Of a DNA stretch of 54,264 nucleotides, positions 6,046-44,321 are shown piece after piece. The DNA comes from a virus. A model generated the notes under the pieces. That model ran no database searches, was not told where the DNA came from, and saw nothing but the letters and a program-made list of their open reading frames with translations. The DNA lies in the IMG/VR virus record IMGVR_UViG_3300025141_000126, positions 1-54,264 of that record, one strand, 5' to 3'. The translations under genes and the position numbers were made by a program. Each line of letters opens with the position of its first letter. Positions within the stretch are counted from its first letter, which is position 1.

Positions 6046-6241
6046 CAAGTTACCAGACGACACTCATGAGAAGGTCTCTGCAATCATGTGGGATGCGTTC
6101 GACGCAGTCACAAACACATGCCCTGTCTATGCTATTATGCCTACGGAGTGGACTGCAGTGGATCAAGCGACCGAGCGAGAGGGGACAGTTGAACAGGCAC
6201 TAGAGGATGCATTTGACTTTGGAGGAGTGTTTGATGGATGA
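6035..6241 (+). CDS. Small paralogue family, cluster A member 1 (68 aa)
   Basis: Starts after an AGGGGGG ribosome site inside the end of the previous ORF. The N-terminus contains PDDTHEKVSAIMWDAF, matching the family signature DDT-x3-[IV] and a nearby W. It ends ...VFDG, and its TGA lies inside the ATGGATGA that starts the next gene, so the two are translationally coupled. Function unknown. Confidence 0.75.
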   Translation: MSNNKLPDDTHEKVSAIMWDAFDAVTNTCPVYAIMPTEWTAVDQATEREGTVEQALEDAFDFGGVFDG

Positions 6242-6410
6242 TACATACGGACTAATCGAGACTTGTACTCTTGCCGTGTACGACCAGTGCAGGAAACTGT
6301 GCCCACTAGATGATATGGTGGACCGCTACTGGAGGCGATGGGAGAGAGCGATCGACTGGAATACTAGCGAGTATACTGGTGAAGAAGCTACGAGGTTAGG
6401 CGATGGATGA
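6234..6410 (+). CDS. Small paralogue family, cluster A member 2 (58 aa)
   Basis: Begins MDDTYGLIE with the nested ATGGATGATAC junction; ORF reading from 6207 adds 9 residues without a better start. An AGGAG ribosome site lies 10 bases upstream. Contains DRYWRRWERAIDW in the position of the family's V-W core. Ends ...RLGDG with its stop inside the next start. Function unknown. Confidence 0.8.
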   Translation: MDDTYGLIETCTLAVYDQCRKLCPLDDMVDRYWRRWERAIDWNTSEYTGEEATRLGDG

Positions 6411-20929: not shown

Positions 20930-21110
20930 GGTCCAGCATCTCCACAGTGATAGCCTCAGCGACTCGATCTTCCGGTAGTGCATCTCGCACGGCGCAGTGG
21001 ACTTGCAGCCACACATCAGGGTGTAAGTCCCTATTCCCGCCACGACACCACCGCAATGCCCCCCACGGTACGTCAAACACAGCACTCTCTATTGCGTTAC
21101 GTGTGTCCAT
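20922..21110 (-). CDS. Small paralogue family, cluster D member 2 (62 aa)
   Basis: MDTRNAIESAVFDVPWGAL, then HPDVWLQVHCAVRDAL with the VW-x-x-V core. Ends ...MLDRG, its stop nested in the next start. Closest relative is the following gene. Function unknown. Confidence 0.75.
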   Translation of the reverse strand: MDTRNAIESAVFDVPWGALRWCRGGNRDLHPDVWLQVHCAVRDALPEDRVAEAITVEMLDRG

Positions 21111-21301
21111 CGACTGTCACTCCCTAGTTCATCCATTGCATCGTGGACCGCCCACAGGACCGCATTGGAACCAAGTTCGTCCTCTACTCCCAAGCATACA
21201 CCACCCCAAATAGCACCCCAGACGCTCCTTGCATGCACCATTAGTGCCCGGTCAATGTCTTGACGAAACAGCTTGCCCATTTGTTCGTAGGTGTCATCCA
21301 T
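21089..21301 (-). CDS. Small paralogue family, cluster D member 1 (70 aa)
   Basis: ATGGATGACAC start just after the helicase stop (GTG at 21307 is a possible alternative). MDDTYEQMGKLF and ARSVWGAIWGGV are textbook family motifs. Overlaps member 2 by 22 bases. Function unknown. Confidence 0.78.
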   Translation of the reverse strand: MDDTYEQMGKLFRQDIDRALMVHARSVWGAIWGGVCLGVEDELGSNAVLWAVHDAMDELGSDSRWTHVTQ

Positions 21302-21303
21302 TG

Positions 21304-23181
21304 TCACTCCCAGTCACGTTGAGTTGCGGTATTGTCCAACTGCTTATCCACCGACCTAGCGAGAGATAACTCAATCGTCTCGCTCTCACCAGCAAGAGCT
21401 ACTAAACCATCGCTGGAGAACTTACCCTCTAGTGCGGTGGCAGCGGCTAACTTGCGTGACATGAGGTGGATCATATCCTCCTGCATGGTGTCATTATACC
21501 GCAGGTAGTAGGTACGGCAAGGCAAAGGCTGAGCAATACGCCAGTGCCTACGACTAGCTTGGCGAAGCGTAAAGAGAGAAACCGGCGTCTCGTAGAAGAT
21601 AAGGGTGGGGAAGTTGTATGCTCCCCCTTTGTCGAACAGGTCTAGCCCAGTCTCGACCAGTTTCGGGTGCGAAATACAGACATCGCAGTCGGGTGCATGC
21701 TCTCTGATCCAGGCCTCGCGCTGATTCAGCTTGACCTTCGATCGTAGTACCGCCACCTTCAATCCAGCGTCGGTTAGTATCCTCTCTAGCCTCGCAACAA
21801 CGTCGCGTTTGGTCGTATTTAGCACATATACCCATGCTTTTCTGCCCTCAGACCCCTCCCTGAGACACAAATCTAGCAACTTTTGCTCTTTGGGGTAGAT
21901 CCGATCAGGAGAAAACGTCGCTAAATTGCAGACCGGCACGAATACACCGTCGTCATCGAGGTATCCTTGGGTGTCCCAGCCGAAGGGATGGTCGATGTAG
22001 TTCAGTAGTACGTTGTTCATCGTCCCACACATGCGTAGGTCACGCCTCGCCGCGAGTTGCATCGCCTTCTTGTACAGATGTGCCCCCGCCCTCAGGTACT
22101 CTTGATGGATATCGGGATCGAGGTTCACTCCAACAACGCTCTCCATGAGTGGCGGCAGATCATCGCTGACCTCATCGAGGGACAAGAACACCGAGCACCC
22201 GAGCAGGTGTCGCCCAAAGAGAGTCGGCATGATCCCCGGTCGCAGCGACATCGACTTCGACGACCGCTTCTTACCCTTCGCCTCACTCACGCTATGCTTA
22301 GACTCGATCCTCCCATACAGAGCGGAGAATGCGACCGAGTCCTCATATCGATGCCCCTCACCGAGCAGAGTCTGGGGGTTCACCTTCCAGAGCAGCGGCC
22401 TTAAGTGTTCTGCATACCCACCGATCAACGTGCCAGTGAGTAGGATCGTCTTATCAACCGACGCCATCAGCGATCCCACGGCTCGTGCCTGCAGGGTAGT
22501 GGCCGACTTCTCCTCGTGGGCCTCATCGACCACCAGGAAGTCAAAGAACCCCCGTAGCTTGCGGTGGATGTACTTCGCGGGTGACCAGCGGTCTTGAATA
22601 CGCTTGGTTCGGGTGTAGGTCCAGAGTTGCTCCCCGCACTCACACTGCCGCCGCTTCGACGCCATCTGTTTCGGGGTGTAGTCAATGTGACTTCCGCAGC
22701 CAGGGCACTTGGTCGCCTCGATCGGACGATGATCCGCACCCAGCTTGGCGGTATCCCGAGCGATGATAAACCACCCATGACCTGACAGCTTAGTCACATC
22801 CTGCCACGATCGGATCTGCGTGACCGGAATGTCGTCGCCTATCGTCTCGCGTATCTCCCGCTCCCACTTCTCGGTCACATGCCCTGGAGCGAAGACCAAT
22901 GCACGATACGGCTGATCGCGGTGAAACGTGGCAATGGCACAGGTGGTCTTACCAACCCCCATCTCGCCGCCTAGGAACAAACCCGAGTGTTGAGTCAAAG
23001 CGGCCTGGGAAGCGGCTACAACGTGTGCCTGGGCTGGTTTTAGGGTACGCAGCAGATGGAACTCCGGCAGATCGTCCATCCCCGGCGTATGCATAGGGGA
23101 GATGGCGTTGCGAGCGTTGGATTGTAGGTCCGTACCGTACTCAGCGACGTACTCATCGAGGTTAGAGATGGATGATAGCAC
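21304..23181 (-). CDS. SNF2/DEAH-type helicase with zinc-ribbon insert
   Basis: 625 aa from GTG at 23181, which shares its G with the previous TAG and follows GGGAGGGGGG. Walker A GEMGVGKT (72-79), DEAH box VVDEAH (217-222), LLTGT motif III and RQASRRHWRIAQ as motif VI (540-551). A zinc-ribbon-like insert between Walker A and DEAH carries CPGC (159-162) and CEC (180-182). This order fits SNF2-like translocases encoded by phages and plasmids. It is the second SF2 enzyme here; the family clusters on both sides suggest the small genes inserted around it. Confidence 0.87.
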   Translation of the reverse strand: MLSSISNLDEYVAEYGTDLQSNARNAISPMHTPGMDDLPEFHLLRTLKPAQAHVVAASQAALTQHSGLFLGGEMGVGKTTCAIATFHRDQPYRALVFAPGHVTEKWEREIRETIGDDIPVTQIRSWQDVTKLSGHGWFIIARDTAKLGADHRPIEATKCPGCGSHIDYTPKQMASKRRQCECGEQLWTYTRTKRIQDRWSPAKYIHRKLRGFFDFLVVDEAHEEKSATTLQARAVGSLMASVDKTILLTGTLIGGYAEHLRPLLWKVNPQTLLGEGHRYEDSVAFSALYGRIESKHSVSEAKGKKRSSKSMSLRPGIMPTLFGRHLLGCSVFLSLDEVSDDLPPLMESVVGVNLDPDIHQEYLRAGAHLYKKAMQLAARRDLRMCGTMNNVLLNYIDHPFGWDTQGYLDDDGVFVPVCNLATFSPDRIYPKEQKLLDLCLREGSEGRKAWVYVLNTTKRDVVARLERILTDAGLKVAVLRSKVKLNQREAWIREHAPDCDVCISHPKLVETGLDLFDKGGAYNFPTLIFYETPVSLFTLRQASRRHWRIAQPLPCRTYYLRYNDTMQEDMIHLMSRKLAAATALEGKFSSDGLVALAGESETIELSLARSVDKQLDNTATQRDWE

Positions 23182-23393: not shown

Positions 23394-23584
23394 TACTTAT
23401 CTCCCCGTAAAGCGATAATGATGTCGTCTACCCTAGTCTCAATAGGCCACTCAAGCTGCTGGTCTGGGATACGCCCCTCGACTTCACGCATGACCTCACG
23501 TCGCACGAACATCGCGATATGTGTGACCATTTCGTCCCAAACCTCGTTGTCGATCGAAACGTCTAGCTTACGCACTGTATCCAT
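23393..23584 (-). CDS. Small paralogue family, cluster E member 2 (63 aa)
   Basis: ATGGATAC start at 23584 (TTG at 23590 is an alternative two codons upstream). MDTVRKLDVSIDNEVWDEMV carries the VW core unusually close to the N-terminus. Overlaps both neighbours. Function unknown. Confidence 0.72.
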   Translation of the reverse strand: MDTVRKLDVSIDNEVWDEMVTHIAMFVRREVMREVEGRIPDQQLEWPIETRVDDIIIALRGDK

Positions 23585-23756
23585 CGTCAAGCACTCCTAG
23601 AATAACAGGTTCCACTGCAAACGCTATGAGGTAGTTTGGCATCGATGCAATCACTTTATCCCGCACCTCCAGCCAGACCTGCATTGAAGCGCCGTTCATC
23701 TGCACGGTCGATTCCCCCATCACAGCACGATCAATTATGCGTTTAGTATCGTCCAT
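23568..23756 (-). CDS. Small paralogue family, cluster E member 1 (62 aa)
   Basis: ATGGACGATAC start at 23756 shares its A with the TGA of the previous gene. MDDTKRIIDRAV and ASMQVWLEVRDKV give a full family signature. Function unknown. Confidence 0.78.
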   Translation of the reverse strand: MDDTKRIIDRAVMGESTVQMNGASMQVWLEVRDKVIASMPNYLIAFAVEPVILGVLDDGYSA

Positions 23757-24355
23757 CACTTGTCTCCTATCTTGATTGTACCAGTCTGCAGACCTCGCGT
23801 CACGGCATCGTCGATTTCCTTTGTGTCAGCATAGAGCATAGCACTGCTGCAACCCACGCATGTCAATGCCGACAGCAACCCCCGTCGCTCTAGATCCTCC
23901 CGCAGATACGGTATCCACGAGCGGAGCAAAGGGGTAGTGTACCGCTCTGACATGAGGGTCTGCCACAACGCCTCGTCACTATTAGACGGCAAGAATCTAG
24001 TATTGAGACTCATCACCACAAGGTGCCAGTGATCCCGGTCGAGACGTAGCTTCTTAATCGACAGATCCCCGGTCCTGAAGTGGGTCGCCCTCCAGGTGCC
24101 GTCGGCGTTGAACAGACTCAGTTGATGCCTGCATGGACCCAAGCGAATCATTCGCACCGCAGCGATCACGTCCTGCCTCGATCCAAGGGCAGACAGGATG
24201 TACACCCCACGAGACCCGATGGCGCATGCGTGCATGTCCAGGTTGACAAAGTGGTTACGCTCGCCGTCGAACGTGGCTAGCTGAACTTCTCCCCATGCAT
24301 AGGGAAACCTGCCTTGTATGCTTTTATCCACCTCGCTATGGTAGTCGCAGCCCAT
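23756..24355 (-). CDS. Hypothetical protein, about 199 aa (start uncertain)
   Basis: The ATG at 24355 has an AAAGGA upstream but overlaps the recombinase gene by 79 bases, which is unusually long. An internal ATG at 24232 would shorten it to 158 aa. Contains FRTGDLSIKKLRLDRDHWHLV and CVGCSS. Mixed alpha/beta character; no recognised domain. Confidence 0.6.
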   Translation of the reverse strand: MGCDYHSEVDKSIQGRFPYAWGEVQLATFDGERNHFVNLDMHACAIGSRGVYILSALGSRQDVIAAVRMIRLGPCRHQLSLFNADGTWRATHFRTGDLSIKKLRLDRDHWHLVVMSLNTRFLPSNSDEALWQTLMSERYTTPLLRSWIPYLREDLERRGLLSALTCVGCSSAMLYADTKEIDDAVTRGLQTGTIKIGDK

Positions 24356-25014
24356 GCTTTGCCATCCTTTCGCCGTCGCTTTTTCGTCTTGTACAACTTC
24401 GCAATTGTTTTCGGACCCATCCCTTCCTTGTTCAGCCGAGCAAACTCCGTGGCGTTGGCCCGCGCATCCCAGTCCTCGATCCAGGGAGCTGCCCGAGTCT
24501 TCCCTGGTGCCATCTTCCAGCCGATTGTCGGTGCCCCACCACTCGCAGCGGGTAACCCCTTCGATCTCCGGTTGGCGTTGACCGCGATCATCCGCTCGCT
24601 GATTTGTCGCCGCTCGAATGCTGCGATCAATGCAAGCACGCCGAAGATCATCTCACCGATAGCAGACGATGTGTCTAACTGTAGGTCGAGCAGATGTAGC
24701 GACACTTTCATCTCACCGAACTTCTCAAGGCAAGCGAGTGCGTCCTTGGTATTGCGGAACGCTCGGTCCAGCTTCGTGATGACGATGTGATCACCGGGTC
24801 GCAGCCCCAGCAGTTGCCTGCCGTTGGGCCGCTCGAATAGAGGTGTCCCGCCAGACACATTCCGGTCCACCAGGGTCGGTTCATGCAGTGGCACAGACAT
24901 TAGTTCAGGCCGACGCCCTGCCCAGTGCCGTTTGATGTAGTCCACTTGAGCCTCAACCGAGTTCTCTTGCTCGTCGGTACTCACACGCACGTACCCATAT
25001 GCTTTATTCTTCAT
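24277..25014 (-). CDS. Serine recombinase (resolvase/invertase family)
   Basis: 245 aa, ATG at 25014 after GGAGACCC (a longer ORF from 25059 lacks a ribosome site). AYGYVRVSTDEQ places the catalytic Ser at residue 12. DHIVITKLDRAFRNTKDAL is the second catalytic block with conserved Arg, and the C-terminal part (GMGPKTIAKLYKTKKRRRK, then WAATTIARWI) is a helix-turn-helix. It is too short for a large serine integrase, so resolution or inversion of DNA is more likely than prophage integration. Confidence 0.85.
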   Translation of the reverse strand: MKNKAYGYVRVSTDEQENSVEAQVDYIKRHWAGRRPELMSVPLHEPTLVDRNVSGGTPLFERPNGRQLLGLRPGDHIVITKLDRAFRNTKDALACLEKFGEMKVSLHLLDLQLDTSSAIGEMIFGVLALIAAFERRQISERMIAVNANRRSKGLPAASGGAPTIGWKMAPGKTRAAPWIEDWDARANATEFARLNKEGMGPKTIAKLYKTKKRRRKDGKAWAATTIARWIKAYKAGFPMHGEKFS

Positions 25015-25327
25015 GGGTCTCCTCCTCATCTGCCATTGAGTTGATGATCCAATTGGCATACTGTGGCCCAGTTACACGCTGGTGTCGTCGCTCTTTCCTG
25101 GTTCCACGACCACATTTCTGACACATCCCACCATGCAGGCCATTGCGGGGGTTCACCACGCCGCACTTACTACATCCCTTTGCAGTGTTCTTTATGTAGT
25201 TGATTACCTCGTACTTATGTTTGAAGTACGGTACTCCATCGACCTGGACGTTCGTTTCGTTAACGACGGTCCATCCCTCGTCTAGCTTTGCGTAACATAC
25301 GCCAAGGTGTCTACCGGCTTTCATCAT
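25004..25327 (-). CDS. Zinc-finger protein, 107 aa
   Basis: CSKCGVVNP and MCQKCGRG (two CxxC pairs at about 52-55 and 69-72) form a likely zinc ribbon between a small N-terminal domain and a basic tail. Overlaps the recombinase start by 11 bases and the next gene by 17 bases. Possible DNA- or RNA-binding role; not recognised. Confidence 0.65.
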   Translation of the reverse strand: MMKAGRHLGVCYAKLDEGWTVVNETNVQVDGVPYFKHKYEVINYIKNTAKGCSKCGVVNPRNGLHGGMCQKCGRGTRKERRHQRVTGPQYANWIINSMADEEETHEE

Positions 25328-28840: not shown

Positions 28841-29329
28841 TCATCCGCTCACGTCGTATCCGCAGCAGTAGAACGCATCGATCGCATCCTGAATCGTCCA
28901 GCCGCGGAAGTCGTCAAGCTGCGTGATCACGTCCCCCGGCACGAGGCCTGGGAGTTGCCGCGAGATCCGCGCGTTGTCGGTACTGAAGGTCAGATAGATT
29001 AGCTGGACGCAGAGAATGTACGCCCGAAGTTCCTGCAGGTAGGAGCTCGATCTTATCTCCTCATCAGACATCCGTTGCCGGTCCAGGGATGAAAGAGCAT
29101 CGCCGTAACCGATGGCGACATGCTCGACAGCGTCGGTCATAGTGGTCGCTACGGTGTTGAGGCGGTAAGGATAGACCAACGGCGCGTTGATTGTGTTGTA
29201 GAGCAACTGCAGTGGCGGCAGGCCGAACAGATCGCAGCCCGCGCACCTCTCAGATTCGCGTTCGTTGTCGATGGTGCCAGAAATGGCAGATAACAACATA
29301 TCATGCTGTGTGGCGTTGCGAATATACAT
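28841..29329 (-). CDS. Helical hypothetical protein, 162 aa
   Basis: ATG at 29329 shares its A with the TGA of the upstream gene (TGATG). Contains CAGCDLFGLPPLQLLYN and a Leu/Tyr-rich helix (ELRAYILCVQLIYLTF). No recognised domain. Confidence 0.62.
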   Translation of the reverse strand: MYIRNATQHDMLLSAISGTIDNERESERCAGCDLFGLPPLQLLYNTINAPLVYPYRLNTVATTMTDAVEHVAIGYGDALSSLDRQRMSDEEIRSSSYLQELRAYILCVQLIYLTFSTDNARISRQLPGLVPGDVITQLDDFRGWTIQDAIDAFYCCGYDVSG

Positions 29330-29592
29330 CAGGCGCCCTCCTCGTTGCGAGTCCACTCAGCGTACAACTCGTTGTGGGAGTCAGAGCAGATCCCACCAGC
29401 GGTATCGTCCACGTCATGCCGCCATAAGAGTGCAACAAGTTCGACCTCTAGCTGTCCGTTGTTACCCTCGATCGAGGCGTGAGGTTCGTACTCGCCTGAC
29501 TCCTCATGACCGTCGTGGGAGCGAAGCCGATACGCCCACCCTTCGTTGTCGCAATCCTGCGAGTCCCAATAGATACGTGCTTCAGTAATCAT
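29329..29592 (-). CDS. Hypothetical protein, 87 aa
   Basis: ATG at 29592 after GGAGGATGTCAAG. Acidic, Trp-containing (RIYWDSQDCDNEGWAYRL). Lies downstream of a copy of the repeated intergenic cassette. Not recognised. Confidence 0.62.
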   Translation of the reverse strand: MITEARIYWDSQDCDNEGWAYRLRSHDGHEESGEYEPHASIEGNNGQLEVELVALLWRHDVDDTAGGICSDSHNELYAEWTRNEEGA

Positions 29593-29664
29593 CTTGACAT
29601 CCTCCAAAAAATAGGGAAACGGTAAACGATGAGTGCAGGCGCTACCCTGCACCGACGTTGATCG
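29593..29664 (-). repeat. Intergenic cassette copy A with hairpin
   Basis: GTGCAGG pairs with CCTGCAC around CGCTAC (stem bases 29633-29653), adjoining GGGAAACGGTAAACG on the plus strand and a T6 run in the transcript just before GGAGG. Related units occur before other genes of this operon. Confidence 0.6.
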
Positions 29665-30998: not shown

Positions 30999-31229
30999 CT
31001 ACTCGCCCACTACGGACTCGTGCCCGCAGTTGTCGCAGCGCACTCGACCCATGCGAACCATTGACCTCGACCAGTTCCCCATCTTGACCTCGACCAGTTC
31101 CCCAGGCGTCGAGGTGGTGCCCAGTACATACTGCGCACCCCCGCACCTCTCGCACGCGGTGGTTGTCTTAACCGCGGCCGCCAAGCCCCGGATTACCTTC
31201 AGTCGGTGCAGTGAATACTTTGTGTGCAT
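30999..31229 (-). CDS. Zinc-ribbon protein, 76 aa
   Basis: CERCGGAQYVLGT and VRCDNCGHES give a classic CxxC...CxxC zinc ribbon in a basic protein. The plus strand holds a 21-base near-exact repeat (TTGACCTCGACCAGTTCCCC-like) inside it, encoding the repeated part GELVEVKMGNWSRSMV. Possible nucleic-acid binding. Confidence 0.65.
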   Translation of the reverse strand: MHTKYSLHRLKVIRGLAAAVKTTTACERCGGAQYVLGTTSTPGELVEVKMGNWSRSMVRMGRVRCDNCGHESVVGE

Positions 31230-31253
31230 GTCATATCCTCCAATAGGTTAAAA

Positions 31254-31736
31254 TCAGCCAAGGAATAAAACGAGGCATTGATCAATGATCGCCTCGAGAT
31301 CGCAATCAGCATCGGCCGCCCTCTTGCAAGCTAAGCCGCAAGGGGAGTTGAGGGGCAGGTCGCGGAGCTCACCGACCCTAGGGTGGCATGATTCCAGATT
31401 CACCCCAGGATATAGCGAACCAATGTAATCAAAAGCGGTGCCCTCGATCGCCACCAGGTTGATCTCGACCTCGAGACCATCCCAACCCAAGGGGAGCCCA
31501 TCAACGAGCAGCTCCCCCCCGGACAGCTTAGCCACGATCGACTCACCGTGCCGTATTAAGTCCCCGTAAGCGTAGCTCCCCGGCAGGAGCGTTTTGAACC
31601 GAACACATCGCGGCCAGGGGCGACGATCACCGACAGCCTCAATTGTAGTCTGTATTTCGAGATCTCCAGCATGGGGAGCAGTGGGGCCGATTCTGCGGCC
31701 GTTTACGTCTTCCTCAATTGGTTTATTATTCTGCAT
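31254..31736 (-). CDS. Hypothetical protein, 160 aa
   Basis: Start after GAGCGAG about 8 bases upstream. Beta-rich middle (LSGGELLVDGLPLGWDGLEV) and C-terminal CGLACKRAADADCDLE. First gene inside the palindrome-rich island. Not recognised. Confidence 0.6.
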   Translation of the reverse strand: MQNNKPIEEDVNGRRIGPTAPHAGDLEIQTTIEAVGDRRPWPRCVRFKTLLPGSYAYGDLIRHGESIVAKLSGGELLVDGLPLGWDGLEVEINLVAIEGTAFDYIGSLYPGVNLESCHPRVGELRDLPLNSPCGLACKRAADADCDLEAIIDQCLVLFLG

Positions 31737-31785
31737 TAGCCTTGCTCGCTCAATTTAAAGGTATATATCAACCCATTGCCTGCCC

Positions 31786-32022
31786 CTAACAGCGGCAGAA
31801 TCGCATATTTGGGCCGACGATCGCCAAATTACTCTCCAGTATTTTAGGTGGTATCTCGTCATCTCCCCATTTAACAGTGATCAACGCGTTACGATCACTG
31901 ATGGGCTCACGCGATACAACCACCCCCCTGGCATGCGCCAAATTGTCGTGTTCACTGAATATAGCCCGCAGAAAATCAACAGAGTGGGCCACTTGATCGC
32001 CCGGTTTAACGTGGAAACTCAT
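31786..32022 (-). CDS. Hypothetical protein, 78 aa
   Basis: Start after GGGAGATGACGAG. MSFHVKPGDQVAH and VKWGDDEIPPKILESNL suggest a small beta-barrel (SH3-like) fold. Not recognised. Confidence 0.6.
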   Translation of the reverse strand: MSFHVKPGDQVAHSVDFLRAIFSEHDNLAHARGVVVSREPISDRNALITVKWGDDEIPPKILESNLAIVGPNMRFCRC

Positions 32023-32030
32023 CTCGTCAT

Positions 32031-32085
32031 CTCCCTTGTTTGTGGTGTCGGCTCCCTTGTTTGTGGTGTCGGCTCCCTTGTTTGT
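32031..32085. repeat. 21-bp tandem repeat, 2.6 copies
   Basis: CTCCCTTGTTTGTGGTGTCGG starts at 32031, 32052 and 32073 (third copy cut short). It lies in the leader between the 32188 and 31786 genes on the minus strand. Confidence 0.8.
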
Positions 32086-32187
32086 TCCACCTGGTGGGCC
32101 GATCGATCAGGTGGCTCTGCCGGCAGCTCTTCAACTGCTCGAGATCTCGATCAGCTCCAAACTGCTCGAGATCTCCAGCGGCCGCCG

Positions 32188-33174
32188 CTATTCTCCCCGG
32201 CCCCCGTTGCCATGTATGCCTATCCCGATGATGACATTTTGAAACAAGCTCGAGCCGCAAGCATGCTTACCCGACGCGCACGAGCCACATTGGCCAGTAC
32301 AGCTCCAGCCCCTTACCCCATACTGCTCGAGAATAGCGGCTCGCACGCGTTTGTGATAAAGGGGATTAGAATATCGTGTTTTACTGTTGATCCCTGTCAT
32401 ATCAATGGCCACGGCCGCAAACAGTCCGCGCACCAACAGTGAGCCGTCCGCGCGCGTTAAGGTCTCGAGCTGTTTGGACAATTCGAGCCCATACTTCGAG
32501 CCGCTGCTTACGTTGAGCATATAATTAGCAGGGAAGGGACGATCGTGCGCTAAAAACAATGGCCAGCTCTTACTGTACCCATAAACAAGCAAATCGGGGC
32601 GCAGCTCGCATAGCTCGAGCCAGAATTGTAAGGTCGCGAGGTCTCGAAAATCGCCGTCCACGTATAACCGGACGATCGCCCCACGCGGTAGCTCGAGCCA
32701 GTGATCGCGAATAAGATCTTTCCTATACTTCATCGCGATTGTGTTGAAGAGCTGACGTAAGTATGGGCCCGGATTACGCCAACTGGTGGTGGTGTAACAA
32801 TATTCAGCGCATGGCCCCTTACCAGGACAAGTAAAGAATGGGAGCTCCGACCAGCAGATAAATGGGAGCTTACTGTTTCCCTTCCTAATGAAGAGCGATC
32901 GATCTGTTTCACTGGCTCGCATCAATGCGTTAAGATCTCGAATTAACGCGCGAAAACCATGGTGCCAAGAGCCCGGGCCGCCGCAAGGGATCCCAGGGAG
33001 AATATTGTACCGAATATAACGGGCCAGCTCATCAGGGGCCATTGTCGCGGCCAACTGGCCTAAGTGCATACCCAACGATCTCGAGACCTTAACAGCGGCG
33101 GCCGCTTTCCTATTCTTATTCAGGGAAGGGAAGCGGCTCTTAAGATTGCGAACAAGCTGTTTTTTAGTTCTCAT
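32188..33174 (-). CDS. GP88-like phage protein
   Basis: 328 aa from ATG 33174, preceded by GGGAGATCTCGAG; the longer frame to 33300 runs through the previous gene. CPGKGPCAEYCY (C116, C122, C126), an SWRNP after it, VRLYVDGDF (169-176) and a late Cys cluster (CTGQCGSCASGKHAC) follow the order I remember for the phage gene-product-88 family, whose biochemical role is unknown to me. The Cys set could bind a metal or cluster. The gene lies wholly in the palindrome-rich island and uses many CTCGAG and CGATCG words in its coding sequence. Confidence 0.7.
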   Translation of the reverse strand: MRTKKQLVRNLKSRFPSLNKNRKAAAAVKVSRSLGMHLGQLAATMAPDELARYIRYNILPGIPCGGPGSWHHGFRALIRDLNALMRASETDRSLFIRKGNSKLPFICWSELPFFTCPGKGPCAEYCYTTTSWRNPGPYLRQLFNTIAMKYRKDLIRDHWLELPRGAIVRLYVDGDFRDLATLQFWLELCELRPDLLVYGYSKSWPLFLAHDRPFPANYMLNVSSGSKYGLELSKQLETLTRADGSLLVRGLFAAVAIDMTGINSKTRYSNPLYHKRVRAAILEQYGVRGWSCTGQCGSCASGKHACGSSLFQNVIIGIGIHGNGGRGE

Positions 33175-33388
33175 CTCGAGATCTCCCTTTACAGGGGCAA
33201 TTGGCCAGCGGACACGAGAGCCCAAGCCGATCACCAGTTGATCGCATAAAATCAATGTGATTCCAGTTGACGCATTTTGAACAATAACAATCGGGGCCAA
33301 ACAGTTGATAGTCGGCTCGATCGATCTCGTGCGATCGTTGACACCTAGGGCACACGGCCGTATGCGTTGATGGGCTATTAATTCTCAT
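33164..33388 (-). CDS. Small zinc-ribbon protein, 74 aa
   Basis: CPRCQRSHEID ... CYCSKC is a CxxC...CxxC-type ribbon; a third Cys group (CPLANCPCKG) follows. Overlaps the GP88-like gene by 11 bases, so the two are translationally coupled. Confidence 0.65.
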   Translation of the reverse strand: MRINSPSTHTAVCPRCQRSHEIDRADYQLFGPDCYCSKCVNWNHIDFMRSTGDRLGLSCPLANCPCKGRSRDEN

Positions 33389-33485
33389 CTCGTCATGGCT
33401 CCAAACAGGGAAGGGAAGTAAAGGTTAACAATCGGGAGATCTCGAGCAGCTCCAACTGCTCGAGATCGACCGGAATTAATCTTCA
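33389..33485 (-). repeat. Intergenic cassette copy D with perfect 12-bp hairpin
   Basis: GATCTCGAGCAG (33438-33449) pairs perfectly with CTGCTCGAGATC (33456-33467) around CTCCAA, flanked by GGGAAGGGAAG and ATCGACCGGAATTAA. Nearly identical to copy E. Confidence 0.8.
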
Positions 33486-33701
33486 TCAGTGAATACCGAT
33501 CTCAACTGTTGGAGCTGGTTGTTTTGGTGGTGGCCCGTCCCATACGAGATCACCACCCACTTCAAAGCCTAAGAATCTTACCTCCTGATGGCGGCCGTAT
33601 AAATGGATAGCGATCGCTTCCTCGATCGTTGGCGCATCAATGCGGATGGGGGAATCACCATAATTGGCTGAATACGTCCAAAACAGAATAAAGGTCTTCA
33701 T
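33486..33701 (-). CDS. Hypothetical protein, 71 aa
   Basis: Start after GGAGATGATGAG. MKTFILFWTYSANYGDSPI, then IRIDAPTIEEAIAIHLYG: a small alpha/beta protein. Followed by hairpin cassette D. Not recognised. Confidence 0.6.
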   Translation of the reverse strand: MKTFILFWTYSANYGDSPIRIDAPTIEEAIAIHLYGRHQEVRFLGFEVGGDLVWDGPPPKQPAPTVEIGIH

Positions 33702-33782
33702 CTCATCATCTCCAAAACAAGGAAGGGAAGGTAAACAATCGGGTGATCTCGAGCAGCGGCCGCCGCTCGAGATCGACCGGAA
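33702..33782 (-). repeat. Intergenic cassette copy E with palindromic hairpin
   Basis: GATCTCGAGC (33745-33754) pairs with GCTCGAGATC (33765-33774), enclosing the palindrome GCGGCCGC. Same flanks as copy D (GGAAGGGAAGGTAAACAATC and CGACCGGAATTAA). Confidence 0.8.
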
Positions 33783-34004
33783 TTAACCTTCAACGCAATC
33801 AACGCGAAACACTTGGCAATGGGTAACCGCTGTTGGCCGCTGTTGGTTGGCCATAACGGCTATCTTGGCTCGATCACAATCAACAGCCCAGACAAGGGAA
33901 GTAAAATCGCGTTGAGAGATCACCCCATTGTGGCTCTTAACGCATATGATTCCCTTTACTTGCCATTTCAACTGCTGACGACAATTGTAGTTTTTAGTTC
34001 TCAT
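33783..34004 (-). CDS. Hypothetical basic protein, 73 aa
   Basis: Start after GGAGATGAAGAG. Contains KWQVKGIICVKSHNGVI and SLVWAVDCDRAKIAVM; four Cys. Ends at cassette E. Not recognised. Confidence 0.6.
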   Translation of the reverse strand: MRTKNYNCRQQLKWQVKGIICVKSHNGVISQRDFTSLVWAVDCDRAKIAVMANQQRPTAVTHCQVFRVDCVEG

Positions 34005-34027
34005 CTCTTCATCTCCAGTAAAGGGAA

Positions 34028-34192
34028 TTAATTAGACGACGATCGCATCATGAGCTCGAGCCAACCAACAGCGGCTCGTGCCGAATCAAACTGTTTCCCT
34101 GTTTCACGTTGAGACGAAACAGCGCGGAAACCAGAGCCGAAAGGCTTGATGTAACCAGCATAACGGCCGTTAAAATTAATTAGTGTTCTCAT
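34028..34192 (-). CDS. Hypothetical protein, 54 aa; first gene of the minus operon
   Basis: ATG at 34192 after GGAGATGATGAG is preferred; the reading to 34267 adds a hydrophobic leader without a ribosome site. MRTLINFNGRYAGYIKPFG is beta-type. The operon promoter should lie between here and 34.4 kb, but I see no consensus site. Confidence 0.6.
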   Translation of the reverse strand: MRTLINFNGRYAGYIKPFGSGFRAVSSQRETGKQFDSARAAVGWLELMMRSSSN

Positions 34193-34323
34193 CTCATCAT
34201 CTCCAAACAGGGAAGGGAAACAAACAAACAACACAAGTAACAATAGCGGTGATCGGTTCGAGATCAATGGGGAGATGAGAATAAAATAGCGGAATTGTAC
34301 AGATACGCTAGTATGCTAGGCCG

Positions 34324-34337
34324 AAATAAATTTATTT
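34324..34337. promoter_or_regulatory. AT-rich 14-bp perfect palindrome
   Basis: AAATAAATTTATTT. Position upstream of the minus operon and AT-rich content fit an operator or a melting element. Confidence 0.5.
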
Positions 34338-34487
34338 TGTCATGAGATCAACCGATAAATGGGGTGATCCCGAGGTAGACAATGGGGAGATCTCGATAAA
34401 TTGAGCCACCTGGTTCCAGGTCAGCTCTAGGCCAAAAATGAGATCTCCAGCGATCAACTGGAGGGAAGGGAGCAGCGATCAACTGGA

Positions 34488-34620
34488 GATGAGACGAGGA
34501 AGGGAGATCAACAGCGGCTCACTGCTGGAGATGATGAGACGAGGAAGGAAGGGAAGGGAGATCACTGCTCGAGATGAGACGAGGGAAGGGAGATCTCCCC
34601 ATTGATGAGATGAGACGAGG
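34488..34620. repeat. Four direct copies of a 12-mer (iteron-like)
   Basis: GATGAGACGAGG occurs at 34488, 34533, 34573 and 34609, each followed by a variable AAGGGAGATC-like purine run. Spacing is 36-45 bases. Confidence 0.7.
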
Positions 34621-34648
34621 AAGGAAGGGAAGAAGTTGAGCAAGGTGC

Positions 34649-34664
34649 ATTGATCGCGATCAAT
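34649..34664. promoter_or_regulatory. 16-bp perfect palindrome
   Basis: ATTGATCGCGATCAAT. A likely protein-binding site in the noncoding switch region. Confidence 0.55.
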
Positions 34665-34748
34665 AGAATAGCGTTGAACCGGGTTGGTTGTAGGACGGCA
34701 TCGGTTTGAAGCTAGAATAGCAGAGGGAAACGACGAAACAACACGATC

Positions 34749-34765
34749 GGGGGGGGTCGTCCCCC
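34749..34765. other. G-tract/C-tract hairpin
   Basis: G8 followed by TCGT and C5 forms a GC-only stem of at least 5 bp. There is no T-run, so it is not a clear terminator. Confidence 0.45.
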
Positions 34766-35060
34766 TCCGGCACCCCGCACTATATCAACCTTCGCCCCAG
34801 AGTATTTTCGCTCCAACATTACTTTCCCTCCCTACCCCCCATCCTACCTACCCACTCCTCTCCCCACACACTCCTTTATGCTCATTATGCCTCTCTCCCG
34901 TCTCGTACGTCCCTCCCTACCCCGCTTCCTCCCACACTCCTCCATTCTGTCTGCCTACGTCCCTGCACTCCTTGACGCTCCATATGCCCCCATACGGCTC
35001 ATTAGACGGCATTTGTGTCGATTCACGCATATTCATCTAGCCTGTTTCCCTGAACCGGCG

Positions 35061-35941: not shown

Positions 35942-36136
35942 ATGGATATCGACGACACCTATCTAAAGATCCTGCGTGCCACCCGCAACGTCGTAGATGA
36001 TCAACTCGACAAGAACCTCGTGGCTGGTGTCGTTGTGCGGCATGTGCTCAACCGGGTGTCGGATGCTGTTTGGCCCTTGCAATGGATGCTGTACACGGGA
36101 CTCTCCAAGATCTGTAACTCGGAGGTGTACTCATGA
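35942..36136 (+). CDS. Small paralogue family member (64 aa)
   Basis: CTGGAGTGAACT precedes the ATG. MDIDDTYLKILRATRNVVDD contains DDTY-x3-[IL]; SDAVWPLQWML is the V-W core. ATGA overlap with the next gene. Function unknown. Confidence 0.75.
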   Translation: MDIDDTYLKILRATRNVVDDQLDKNLVAGVVVRHVLNRVSDAVWPLQWMLYTGLSKICNSEVYS

Positions 36137-36968: not shown

Positions 36969-37574
36969 ATGAAGACAATCGTGATACTATCGGGGGGTGT
37001 GGACTCTACTGTGATCCTCTGGCGGTGCTTAGCTGCGGAGGATGAGGTGAAGGCACTCTCATTCGACTACGGTCAACGACATCGCCGGGAACTCGACGCT
37101 GCCACGAAGATCGCTGCCAAGGCAGGGGTCGAGCATAAGATCGTGGATGTGACAGCATGGGGCGACCTGATGCAGCCTATCCTAAGAGCTCCTGTCCCCC
37201 ACGGCCATTATGAGAGCGAACAGCAGAAGTCTACCGTCGTGCCTAACCGGAATATGGTCTTCATCGCGATCGCTGCCTCCTGGGCTATGTCTGTCGGATA
37301 CGATCAAGTCGCTATCGGTGCCCATGCCGGGGATCATCACATCTACCGGGACTGCCGGGAATCGTTCTTTGCTCCCCTGGAACTAGCACTCTATGCCTCT
37401 GATGAGCGTCAAATACAGATCTGGCGACCGTATGTTCGGCAAACAAAGGCTGAGGTGATCGCTGACGGCAGGGATCTAGCTGCTCCGCTTGATATGACCT
37501 GGACTTGCTATGAGGGCGGGGACGTGCCGTGTGGTAAATGCGGTGCCTGTGTCGAGAGAGAGGAAGCGGAATGA
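36969..37574 (+). CDS. queC: 7-cyano-7-deazaguanine (preQ0) synthase
   Basis: 201 aa. PP-loop SGGVDST at 8-14 for ATP binding, and a C-terminal zinc site C180, C188, C191, C194. QueC converts 7-carboxy-7-deazaguanine to preQ0 using ATP and ammonia. In phages this product is used to modify DNA rather than tRNA. It overlaps QueE by 4 bases, and QueE overlaps the DpdA-like gene by 1, so the three form a pathway operon. QueD and FolE are absent here and would have to come from the host or the missing part of the genome. Confidence 0.92.
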   Translation: MKTIVILSGGVDSTVILWRCLAAEDEVKALSFDYGQRHRRELDAATKIAAKAGVEHKIVDVTAWGDLMQPILRAPVPHGHYESEQQKSTVVPNRNMVFIAIAASWAMSVGYDQVAIGAHAGDHHIYRDCRESFFAPLELALYASDERQIQIWRPYVRQTKAEVIADGRDLAAPLDMTWTCYEGGDVPCGKCGACVEREEAE

Positions 37575-38164
37575 AGATCAACGAGAGGTTTGTTTCGTAC
37601 CAGGGATCGGGGCTAATGACCGGTCAGCAGCAGTATTTCGTTCGGCTACACGGTTGCTCTGTACCTTGTCCTATCAAGGCAATGTGCGATGAGTCTGATG
37701 CACTATCGGGCGAACCCAACGAGGAGTTGACCGTGGAGGACGTGGCTATCGCAGCCGCTGAGTCTGGCACCGGTTGGCTGCATCTAACCGGTGGTGAACC
37801 GATGGATCAGCGTAGCGAGGTTGCGTATGCCATCGCTCATGCCCGAGACCGAGACGTGAAGACTCACATTCAAACCAGCGGTGCTGTCTGGTGCCCATCA
37901 GTAGACTACCTCACGGTGAGCCCAAAAGCAGAGAAGGTTGCTCAGAACTACGGCGACGAGATGATCCTTGTCTACGATCCGGCCTGGGTTACGGTTGATG
38001 TTGCGAATGAACTACGGCGATCGACCTCGTTCGGCCTGTACTACATGCAGCCGCTATGGGAGTTTGGCACATGCAACTCAGACAAGACCTTGAAGTTCAT
38101 GGCCGCGCTGAAGGGTTCATGGAGAATTAGCGGTCAACTGCACAAGTACTTGGGGATTCGGTAA
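37571..38164 (+). CDS. queE: 7-carboxy-7-deazaguanine synthase-like radical SAM enzyme
   Basis: 197 aa. RLHGCSVPCPIKAMCDES provides the cluster-binding Cys at C29, C33 and C39. LHLTGGEPMDQ (GGEP SAM motif), HIQTSG and YLTVSPKAE match QueE, which contracts carboxy-tetrahydropterin to CDG. The Cys spacing CX3CX5C is not the usual CX3CX2C of radical SAM enzymes. Its place between queC and the DpdA-like gene secures the assignment. Confidence 0.85.
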   Translation: MKINERFVSYQGSGLMTGQQQYFVRLHGCSVPCPIKAMCDESDALSGEPNEELTVEDVAIAAAESGTGWLHLTGGEPMDQRSEVAYAIAHARDRDVKTHIQTSGAVWCPSVDYLTVSPKAEKVAQNYGDEMILVYDPAWVTVDVANELRRSTSFGLYYMQPLWEFGTCNSDKTLKFMAALKGSWRISGQLHKYLGIR

Positions 38165-38931
38165 TGCGGCACTACCACGGCACGCCACTTGGAGGTACAC
38201 GGGAATCGGTGGCGCGATTTGTGATCACAGGGAATCGACACTTCCTTGTACCCTTCCCGAACCCCGACGACCTCTCCGTGATCGCTGAGTCGAGTTGTGG
38301 CTTCTGTGTGGACAATGGTGCTTTCAGTGCCTGGAGATCCGGCAAGCCTGTCACCGACTGGGGACCGTATTACGACTGGTGTACACTGTGGTGCCGTCAT
38401 CCCCGCTGGGATTTTGCGGTCGTCCCAGACGTGATTGGGGGGTGCGAAGAAGAGAATGATTTGCTTGTAGAGGAATGGTTTGCCCGCACCCGACTCGACG
38501 ACGGCACTTGTGCTGAGGGAGCACCGGTCTGGCATCTACATGAATCATTCGATCGACTCAACCGGTTAATGGCCGACAGCCGAATCATCTGCTTGGGTAG
38601 CAGCGGTGAGTATCAGAACCCTGGCACCACCGCTTGGCACGACCGAATGGCAAAGGCTATGGATGTGCTGTGTGATAGCACTGGTAGTCCCAGGCGTAAG
38701 ATACATGGCCTGCGTATGCTGGACCCGGCGATCGTCGCGAGATACCCGCTGTTCAGTGCGGACTCAACGAACGTCGCACAGAACTCTCAACTACTCGGTC
38801 GGTACGGCATGTACAAACCACCTACTCAGGCCCAGCGAAGGGAAGTACTGGCAGCTCGTATTGAGACGACTAGGTCTCCTGGGATCTGGGTGCCTGCCGC
38901 TAAGCAAGAAGAACTATTCTCTCTGGAGTGA
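38164..38931 (+). CDS. dpdA: DpdA-like DNA 7-deazaguanine transglycosylase
   Basis: 255 aa. MRHYHGTPLGGTRESVARF start; DNGAFSAW with D50 in the position of the TGT substrate-binding Asp; PDVIGG (D89); PVWHLHES (122-128); SADSTNVAQN with D200 in the position of the TGT nucleophile region. I recall this family as phage DpdA-type tRNA-guanine-transglycosylase homologues that exchange guanine in DNA for preQ0 or a related base. With queC and queE just upstream, the phage DNA is predicted to carry dPreQ0 or a derivative, protecting it from host restriction. Confidence 0.75.
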   Translation: MRHYHGTPLGGTRESVARFVITGNRHFLVPFPNPDDLSVIAESSCGFCVDNGAFSAWRSGKPVTDWGPYYDWCTLWCRHPRWDFAVVPDVIGGCEEENDLLVEEWFARTRLDDGTCAEGAPVWHLHESFDRLNRLMADSRIICLGSSGEYQNPGTTAWHDRMAKAMDVLCDSTGSPRRKIHGLRMLDPAIVARYPLFSADSTNVAQNSQLLGRYGMYKPPTQAQRREVLAARIETTRSPGIWVPAAKQEELFSLE

Positions 38932-38934
38932 CCA

Positions 38935-39120
38935 ATGGACGACACACGCGACAGTATAAACAACATCGCCTGGGAGGCATGGCATCGCCTGCGAGAGGAC
39001 ACCGGCAACTTGATACATACGGTGCCGATGATAAACGCCGTAGCGATGTCAACAGTGCACGGTCCAAGCCAACTCATCGGAGACGAGGTATGGCTTTTCG
39101 CCGGGGGTTACCATGGATGA
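38935..39120 (+). CDS. Small paralogue family, cluster G member 1 (61 aa)
   Basis: CTGGAGTGACCA then ATGGACGACAC. MDDTRDSINNIAWEAWHRL has the full signature. Ends ...GGYHG with its stop in the next ATGGATGA. Function unknown. Confidence 0.8.
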   Translation: MDDTRDSINNIAWEAWHRLREDTGNLIHTVPMINAVAMSTVHGPSQLIGDEVWLFAGGYHG

Positions 39121-41399: not shown

Positions 41400-41613
41400 G
41401 ATCACAGCACCGTCGAATCTCCCGTGGTTCGGCATAGCCCGCGACACACACAAAGCGATGAGTGCGTGTATAGACCACAATGTCCGTGACAGGGTTTGGA
41501 GTGGTGTGCTACGACGTGTCGATCGGCAAAACCTCGGGATGTCTTGGATTACGCACCCACAAGTAATAAGGGAGGTGGTCAGTGAATTTTCTACAAAGCA
41601 TGTGTCTGAATAG
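41386..41613 (+). CDS. Small paralogue family member (75 aa)
   Basis: ATG at 41386 after GAGGAGGGG. DTHKAMSACIDHNVRDRVW then SGVLRRV shows the DT-x4 and VW-x-x-V pattern, displaced by an N-terminal extension. Overlaps the methyltransferase start by 32 bases. Function unknown. Confidence 0.68.
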   Translation: MTATKITAPSNLPWFGIARDTHKAMSACIDHNVRDRVWSGVLRRVDRQNLGMSWITHPQVIREVVSEFSTKHVSE

Positions 41614-42382
41614 GCACAGCACCGACGTGAAGGCGATGGTGATGTCCGTTGGGGTTGTTCGTCGCGCAGTGAACAACGTCAACTACGACATCAAAACCAA
41701 CGGCGAGGCGTTGGTTATCGACGTTGCCCTGGACCATCTGTCTGGTCCCTTCTTTGATGTCGGTGCGTTCCATGGTGACTGGGGCAGTATCCCCACTGCC
41801 AAAGGTCGCCTGACGTACATGTTTGAGGCTTCCCCAGAGAACTACGATACCTTGGTACATAGCGTACTCCATGAGAACTGCGTGACACACAACGTCGTAG
41901 TCGGAGAGCGTACTCACTCCAAGGTGAACTTCTATCACGTCGAGGATAAGCCGCATACCAGTTCACGCTACGGGATGTTCCTTGACAAGCACATCCCTGG
42001 TTCCAAGAAGTCGCATCACATCCTACCGATGATTACCGGCGACGTGTTCTGCGAGGGTGAGCAGATCCCAGAGATCGGACTGTTGAAGATCGACGTTGAG
42101 GGTGGAGAGATGCCAGTCATCCGTGGATTCAACACGATGCTCTCGACCGGCAATATTGGTGCCATCCAGTTCGAGTACGGCTTGGTCAATATCGAGGCAC
42201 GGACATTCCTGAAGGACTTTTATGACTATCTCACTCCAAGGGGTTTTCTAATCGGCAAGGTCTTTCCAGACGGGGTGGAATTCAAGGCATATGCGTACGA
42301 GGATGAGGACTTCCTTGGCCCTAACTACCTCGCCGTACACAACTCACAGACCGCATTCCTTAACGCTGTGAGGGTAGGATGA
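41582..42382 (+). CDS. FkbM-family methyltransferase
   Basis: 266 aa from GTG after GGAGGTGG. FFDVGAFHGDWG (57-68) is the SAM-binding motif I, and LLKIDVEGGEMPVIRGF (about 165-181) is the FkbM hallmark. FkbM enzymes put methyl groups on hydroxyls of sugars or small molecules. With a glycosyltransferase in the structural module, one possible target is a capsid or surface glycan, but this is only inference. Confidence 0.85.
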   Translation: MNFLQSMCLNRHSTDVKAMVMSVGVVRRAVNNVNYDIKTNGEALVIDVALDHLSGPFFDVGAFHGDWGSIPTAKGRLTYMFEASPENYDTLVHSVLHENCVTHNVVVGERTHSKVNFYHVEDKPHTSSRYGMFLDKHIPGSKKSHHILPMITGDVFCEGEQIPEIGLLKIDVEGGEMPVIRGFNTMLSTGNIGAIQFEYGLVNIEARTFLKDFYDYLTPRGFLIGKVFPDGVEFKAYAYEDEDFLGPNYLAVHNSQTAFLNAVRVG

Positions 42383-43944: not shown

Positions 43945-44115
43945 ATGGATAACACGAAAGAACTGATTCACGCCCCCTTCGTGCAGTTGCTGTTTGGGAT
44001 GCCGCTTGGGGTTCACCCAGATCATATCGAACGCCGCCCCCACGACGCTGTTGACCATGAGTTATTCACTATGCTCGAAGGGGGTCCGATATGGATGACA
44101 CAAGAGACCTCATAG
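43945..44115 (+). CDS. Small paralogue family, cluster I member 1 (56 aa)
   Basis: ATGGAGATACGAC before ATGGATAACAC. MDNTKELIHAPFVQLL start with M-D-N-T-x3-I; a DHELF and an IWMTQ end replace the core. Overlaps the next gene by 25 bases. Function unknown. Confidence 0.72.
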   Translation: MDNTKELIHAPFVQLLFGMPLGVHPDHIERRPHDAVDHELFTMLEGGPIWMTQETS

Positions 44116-44321
44116 AGAAGCTAATGCACTCCGACATTGATGACGCCACTGAGCAACTCCCGATGCGCGTCTGGTGTCCGGTCTGGGGGCATATGTGCGG
44201 GTTTCGGTCGATGCAGGATGGCGGTACACCTACCCTAGGAATAAGGTCCGACATGGATGTTGCGGCCCAGGCACACGTACGCAGCAAGACTTTCTCCCTC
44301 CGGTATGGGGGTATCGACTAG
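44091..44321 (+). CDS. Small paralogue family, cluster I member 2 (76 aa)
   Basis: ATGGATGACAC start. MDDTRDLIEKLMHSDIDDAT and PMRVWCPVWGHM give a full signature. The N-terminus resembles 38935 (MDDTRD). Last small gene before the structural module. Function unknown. Confidence 0.78.
   Translation: MDDTRDLIEKLMHSDIDDATEQLPMRVWCPVWGHMCGFRSMQDGGTPTLGIRSDMDVAAQAHVRSKTFSLRYGGID

Follow-up and report, generated by a model that had tools for sequence, protein, structure and literature searches.

A 3.4-kb block crowded with CTCGAG and other six-base palindromes in a phage genome that avoids palindromes elsewhere

How can 17 copies of one six-base palindrome lie within 3.4 kb of a phage genome that has none elsewhere? 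The question is raised by the viral record IMGVR_UViG_3300025141_000126, of which the whole 54,264-bp stretch analysed here is called the window, and by a block of small genes at 31254–34620 in it, called the island. The first-pass annotation of this DNA had reported at least 17 CTCGAG sites in 31293–34573, where less than one was expected, and had noticed none elsewhere. An exhaustive count gave exactly 17, all in that span, and none in the rest of the window; about 0.8 would be expected by chance in 3.4 kb at a frequency of 1/4096. It seems to us an even call whether the island is an early-gene module that was recently exchanged in from an unsampled relative without palindrome avoidance.

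Distribution of six-base palindromes

Other palindromes are also abundant in the island, in genes and between them, as had been claimed. Positions 31254–34620 hold 10 of the 23 AGATCT sites of the window, 12 of the 47 CGATCG sites, 3 of the 5 GAGCTC sites, all five TGGCCA sites, and the single sites of CCCGGG, GGGCCC, and GGATCC (1/1 each). Three of the four GCGGCCGC sites are inside, and the fourth, at 31174, is just beyond the edge. When all 64 six-base palindromes are pooled, the density is 30.6/kb inside and 7.76/kb outside. The same enrichment is seen at 1-kb resolution: each of the four bins of the island contains 20–39 palindromes, and each of the 50 remaining bins 3–14.

Under the island's own third-order Markov model, 6.0 CTCGAG sites are expected in the island, where 17 are observed; in the rest of the window, 16.5 are expected under such a model and none is observed. 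The total number of palindromes in the island (103) exceeded the mean (78) and the maximum (102) of 100 third-order Markov simulations, whereas the rest showed strong depletion (390 observed; 676–681 expected). Sixteen hexamers that the rest lacks account for 38 occurrences in the island. Hexamers with mirror symmetry or with purine/pyrimidine symmetry are also elevated in the island; in the rest, the depletion is restricted to true palindromes. Since mirror-symmetric words are elevated too, palindromes as the only driver are ruled out, and the island excess is a repetitive vocabulary including palindromes, not a purely palindromic one. No anticorrelation was found between the words avoided outside and those enriched inside. 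The rank correlation of palindrome preference between the island and the rest was rho 0.15, compared with 0.48–0.67 when nine 3.4-kb windows from outside the island were taken in its place.

Palindromes at constant protein sequence and codon usage

In the coding DNA, observed palindromes were compared with those expected from synonymous codon shuffling, in which the proteins and the codon usage are held constant. The island genes contain 76 palindromes (47.8 expected; z +4.9). The bias is reversed outside: 12 rightward genes contain 126, half of the 249 expected (z -8.1), and five leftward non-island genes contain 36 (66 expected; z -4.0). The sibling contig L006, approximately 98% identical over 44.1–54.2 kb, shows avoidance as well (139 observed; 241 expected). 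Mirror words, used as the control, showed no significant depletion outside the island (300 observed, 287 expected; 57 observed, 65 expected) and a mild rise in the island genes (59 vs 44.8 expected). In other words, the rest of the genome avoids true palindromes, as in restriction-site avoidance, and the vocabulary of the island is repetitive in general and rich in palindromes. For the gp88-like island gene alone, none of 500 shuffles matched the gene itself in palindromes, in CTCGAG sites, or in repeated words.

Edges, composition, and codon usage of the block

The edges first reported, 31254 and 34620, were nearly right in comparison with the maximum-scoring segment (Table 1). The right edge, at approximately 34661, is sharp. 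The left end is weaker and mixed, lying at about 31250–31750 according to vocabulary, AC/GT ratio, and tetranucleotides. As a possible target-site duplication at the block edges, only GCATTGATC is common to 31275 and 34647, which is unconvincing. Two perfect short tandem repeats are present, one just left of the island (31061–31104, period 23) and one within its left part (32031–32085, period 21).

Dinucleotides and tetranucleotides of the block differ from those of the rest (AC/GT dinucleotide ratio of 0.73 vs 1.04). Codon usage, for which a comparison had been proposed, is foreign: its departure from the large genes has a chi-square value of 162 (830 codons of the seven island genes), whereas ten small leftward genes nearby (939 codons) give 71.8 and segments of the large genes no more than 79. 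Among the Ala codons, GCA accounts for 2 of 61 in the island and for 178 of 640 in the large genes.

These features might be explained as follows. The island would be an early-gene module close to the promoter in a tailed phage, with seven small leftward genes, start leaders, and intercistronic hairpins, and a recent exchange with some phage or mobile element, unsampled and probably related, would have brought it in. Type II restriction in the hosts would presumably have cleared six-base palindromes from the recipient lineage over a long time. The donor DNA would not have undergone such clearing and would have carried its own highly repetitive oligonucleotide vocabulary, leaving the block saturated with sites. 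CTCGAG would have been raised in a twofold manner, by the vocabulary within genes and by duplication of the intercistronic hairpins and leaders.

Repeated vocabulary

Words of 8–10 bases recur in the island on both strands, and words such as GATCTCGAG, AGATCTC, GGCCGC, and GGAGATGA are found in both coding and non-coding DNA. In the island, identical 8-mers form 911 direct and 715 inverted pairs, and the maxima in third-order Markov simulations (n = 100) were 396 and 412, respectively. Among 128 viral windows with a GC content under 58%, the maxima were 392 and 310; comparable numbers were found in some GC-rich viral windows only. L001–L006 and loci under 3.4 kb were left out of this comparison, and most of its loci had been retrieved by CTCGAG-containing patterns, so that the control is biased and conservative. 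Repeated 10-mers cover 75% of the non-coding and 32% of the coding island DNA, and 3–13% of the bases in 14 control windows. No tandem repeat, tRNA, or Rfam family was found that explains the island. Block-wide selection for RNA structure was rejected: the 60-nt folding energies are like those of the rest, and only three local hairpin regions stand out.

Repetition of this kind might have arisen in place. A native block could have been altered by multiplication of GATCTCGAGC, GGAGATGA, and GGCCGC on both strands through local copying, slippage, or gene conversion. Direct and inverted repeats above every signature model tried are consistent with such a process, as are 49 ten-mers common to the gp88-like gene and the non-coding island DNA (control mean 2.3, maximum 14) and the leaders partly common to the rest of the phage. 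A codon shift in seven genes, however, is not readily made by local copying, and the sharp right edge also argues against this origin, which we regard as unlikely.

Genes, start leaders, and hairpins of the island

A leftward gene block begins with the seven small island genes, which adjoin a divergent region (Table 1). Gene 5 belongs to the GP88 family, its open reading frame (ORF; scanned as 32188–33300) having a score of 54.9 bits against the Pfam gathering cut-off of 24.4 bits for PF17338; profile scans of the other six genes gave no family above cut-off.

Table 1. Coordinates of the block and of features in and near it
Feature	Position	Strand	Remarks
Compositionally distinct block	31442..34661	.	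maximum-scoring log-odds segment; vocabulary and AC/GT profile
Span of all 17 CTCGAG sites	31293..34573	.	exhaustive count
Island gene 7, 160 aa	31254..31736	-	function not assigned; only a sub-cutoff NCBIfam match
Island gene 6, 78 aa	31786..32022	-	no family; exact start leader GGAGATGACGAGATGA
Third hairpin region, two CTCGAGATCT words	32131..32182	-	weaker: z -2.93 for 32100-32192
Island gene 5, 328 aa, GP88 family (PF17338)	32188..33174	-	E 1.5e-14, 54.9 bits
Island gene 4, 74 aa, cysteine-rich	33164..33388	-	no family above cut-off
Intercistronic hairpin, 13-bp stem with two CTCGAG sites	33433..33472	-	z -5.86
Island gene 3, 71 aa	33486..33701	-	no family
Second intercistronic hairpin, same family (72-nt repeat, 86% identical)	33740..33779	-	z -6.93
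Island gene 2, 73 aa	33783..34004	-	no family
Island gene 1, about 54 aa	34028..34192	-	no family; scanned without start Met
Promoter- or operator-like motif CGCTAGTATGCTAGGCCGAAA	34306..34326	+	near copy in sibling L006
Non-coding leader, repeated GGGAGATC / GAGATGAGACGAGGAAGG units	34373..34632	.	upstream of first leftward gene
QueC, QueE, DpdA-like genes (7-deazaguanine cassette)	36969..38931	+	outside island; absent from L006

The start leader GGAGATGANGAGATGA has seven matches in the window (0.17 expected), all seven in the island and five of them at gene starts. It is thus a conserved sequence abutting several start codons and, by analogy, resembles the start-associated sequences (SAS) described below. 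Leaders of the non-island genes at 29595, 30012, and 30927 have a common pyrimidine-rich pattern, and three of the seven island leaders score 22–26 on this pattern, for which the 99th percentile at random places is 20. In addition, a scan of viral contigs with a 19-bp island motif found one contig only, the sibling L006, in which the near copy of CGCTAGTATGCTAGGCCGAAA is located just right of the island-equivalent position.

This phage or its sibling therefore also has a part of the leader and the 19-bp motif outside the island, a finding that speaks against an unrelated chimera and seems to favour a module from a related element. An assembly chimera, in which the phage contig had been fused with DNA from another organism, would account for the foreign composition of the island, and the sibling contigs do stop near its right edge (L006 at the equivalent of about 34643 and L005 at about 35519). 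The motif in common with L006, the start leaders in common with flanking genes, and the gene order, which stays coherently leftward across the left edge, make this explanation very improbable. The first-pass annotation had also reckoned with a vector artefact, and no match of the island to plasmid or phage DNA was found.

Ten of the 17 CTCGAG sites are in coding DNA, six of these being in-frame Leu-Glu codons, and seven are non-coding, four of them in the two strong intercistronic hairpins. The 13-bp stems of both hairpins are built on GATCTCGAGC; these hairpins might serve in messenger processing or in translation coupling between the small genes. A word-specific function had been offered as one option, and the non-coding and hairpin sites fit it, whereas the ten coding sites and the rise of other symmetric classes do not. 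According to this explanation, CTCGAG/GATCTCGAG is an iterated signal (an operator, modification, or processing site) kept by selection, like HIP1 of cyanobacteria. The gp88-like gene has six CTCGAG sites, as against 1.1 expected at constant codon usage (reached in 0 of 500 shuffles), the hairpin arms are built on this word, and A or C follows it in 32 of 34 oriented flanks. On the other hand, many unrelated and mirror-symmetric words are raised together with it, and the sites occur in several reading frames and contexts. No cognate methyltransferase was recognised among the window proteins scanned, a subset of the ORFs, which included only an FkbM-type methyltransferase (41582–42382). Selection for such a signal is considered quite improbable.

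Flanking regions and the 7-deazaguanine cassette

The region at 34740–35000, right of the island, is non-coding, rich in C runs, and partly kept at about 92% in L006; it is probably part of the divergent regulatory region. Small ORFs beginning with MDDT at 6207–6410, 21089–21307, 23568–23759, 35942–36136, and 44091–44321 look like a repeated small-protein family. A serine recombinase with the Resolvase N-terminal domain (PF00239) is encoded at 24277–25059 in the leftward block.

At a distance of 2.3 kb from the island lie QueC (PF06508, 9.1e-57), QueE (best model 1.1e-19, under the NCBIfam cut-offs), and a DpdA-like gene (phrog_887, 4.3e-59); phrog_2076 (4.3e-20) is also among the cassette matches. 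These correspond to QueC, QueE, and the DpdA-type transglycosylase of a phage 7-deazaguanine cassette. The cassette is cleanly missing from L006, a presence/absence difference between close phages (window 36972–39108; L006 2316–2322): L006 runs directly from the equivalent of 36971 to that of 39109.

Modified guanine that makes avoidance needless had also been proposed, and a QueC-QueE-DpdA-like cassette is present. Relaxed avoidance would mean that the lineage gained the cassette, tolerating new site-rich DNA while old DNA keeps the former avoidance. The cassette genes at this place and the palindrome avoidance of L006, which has no cassette, are in line with this. However, a tendency to avoidance is seen in the cassette genes as well (18 palindromes vs 27.4 expected by synonymous shuffling, z -2.0), so the cassette need not be new; the difference from L006 may be a gain or a loss, and the modification is predicted from genes. 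Since L006 avoids palindromes without the cassette, avoidance is independent of it, and the cassette alone cannot explain words in one block together with avoidance in the rest. Relaxed avoidance, distinctly improbable as the explanation, is compatible with module exchange and not exclusive of it.

Search for a donor

Searches at the DNA and protein levels revealed no donor among viral contigs, plasmids, phage records, and species genomes. The nearest-genome search proposed for the island genes gave distant relatives of the gp88-like protein only, in phage and plasmid records; in viral and species-genome contigs this protein gave no donor. The phage itself is distant from the phage records searched, and no relative was found for the left-flank protein at 28841–29356.

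Word searches gave several candidates that were rejected. Among the matches listed for CTGCTCGAGATCTC in viral contigs, the 12 loci inspected were mostly Leu-Glu-rich genes in GC-rich genomes; L026, L043, and L093, also among these matches, are similar to one another (about 52% GC, CTCGAG throughout), and their dinucleotides are unlike those of the island. The hairpin pattern was found in eight viral contigs, none resembling the island. ACAATSGGGWGATCTCGA was found in one contig that is not island-like, and the start leader GGAGATGANGAGATGAGAA in one dissimilar, AT-rich contig. In species genomes, AACAGCGGC..CTGCTCGAGATC gave 57 scattered matches, none similar. Iteration of GATCTCGAGC was absent among 117 genomes of one phylum (that of G003, drawn around a Cyanobium genome), in which it occurs at most 181 times per 3.8 Mb.

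Origin of the island

Recent transfer, likewise among the options of the first-pass annotation, is the best fit to the codon usage, dinucleotides, tetranucleotides, and rho value of 0.15; the donor it calls for was not found. Four points weigh against a recent exchange of the module: this missing donor, the gradual left edge, the shared leader elements, with which the block could be native, and word repetition far above the tetranucleotide-signature prediction. Repetition exceeds the third-order Markov model, and therefore simple transfer from an ordinary genome fails to explain the vocabulary. That words recur within genes more often than codon usage accounts for points to a donor or process with an extreme vocabulary.

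An extension of the module exchange, which we hold to be unlikely, is that the locus is a natural experiment in restriction escape. A half-purged lineage, cleared of every CTCGAG, with a cassette absent from its approximately 98% identical sibling, would have taken up a site-packed 3.4-kb early module, whose vocabulary some word-spreading process in the donor had multiplied on both strands and within genes, HIP-like but viral. Avoidance and a site-rich block on one molecule offer a direct test of the rate at which restriction purges new phage DNA and of whether base modification lifts the restriction pressure.

Comparison with known systems

Phage genomes are mosaic, with foreign gene modules. 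The island is similar in being a sharply bounded block whose small genes mostly lack a family and have foreign codon usage; it differs in that its foreign mark is a reversed restriction-site bias with an extreme repeated vocabulary, and in that a donor was not found. The gp88-like gene, above the Pfam cut-off for GP88, has distant relatives only, for example in Synechococcus and Roseobacter phages and Streptomyces plasmids, with about 22–36% identity over parts.

7-Deazaguanine DNA modification occurs in phages (PMC6884629). QueC, QueE, and the DpdA-like gene are mutually adjacent here in a similar way; unlike those systems, the one in this phage is known from genes alone, and QueD and FolE were not seen among the window proteins scanned.

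In Cluster K mycobacteriophages, SAS and extended SAS (ESAS) repeats are found at the translation starts of some non-structural genes, in some cases directly preceded by inverted repeats (PMC3203893). The island leader is also repeated at gene starts. Its sequence, however, is unrelated: the 13-bp sequence GGGATAGGAGCCC of Cluster K gene starts has one match with two mismatches, and 1.08 is expected by chance. Moreover, the leader is limited to one 3.4-kb block, and island words also occur within genes.

HIP1 and its variants in cyanobacteria are described as palindromes over-represented genome-wide and tied to methyltransferases (PMC4390886). Palindromic words are over-represented in the island too, in both coding and non-coding DNA. 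In contrast to the genome-wide HIP1, the island is one block, holding 17 CTCGAG sites as against 0 elsewhere in the window, where the bias is opposite.

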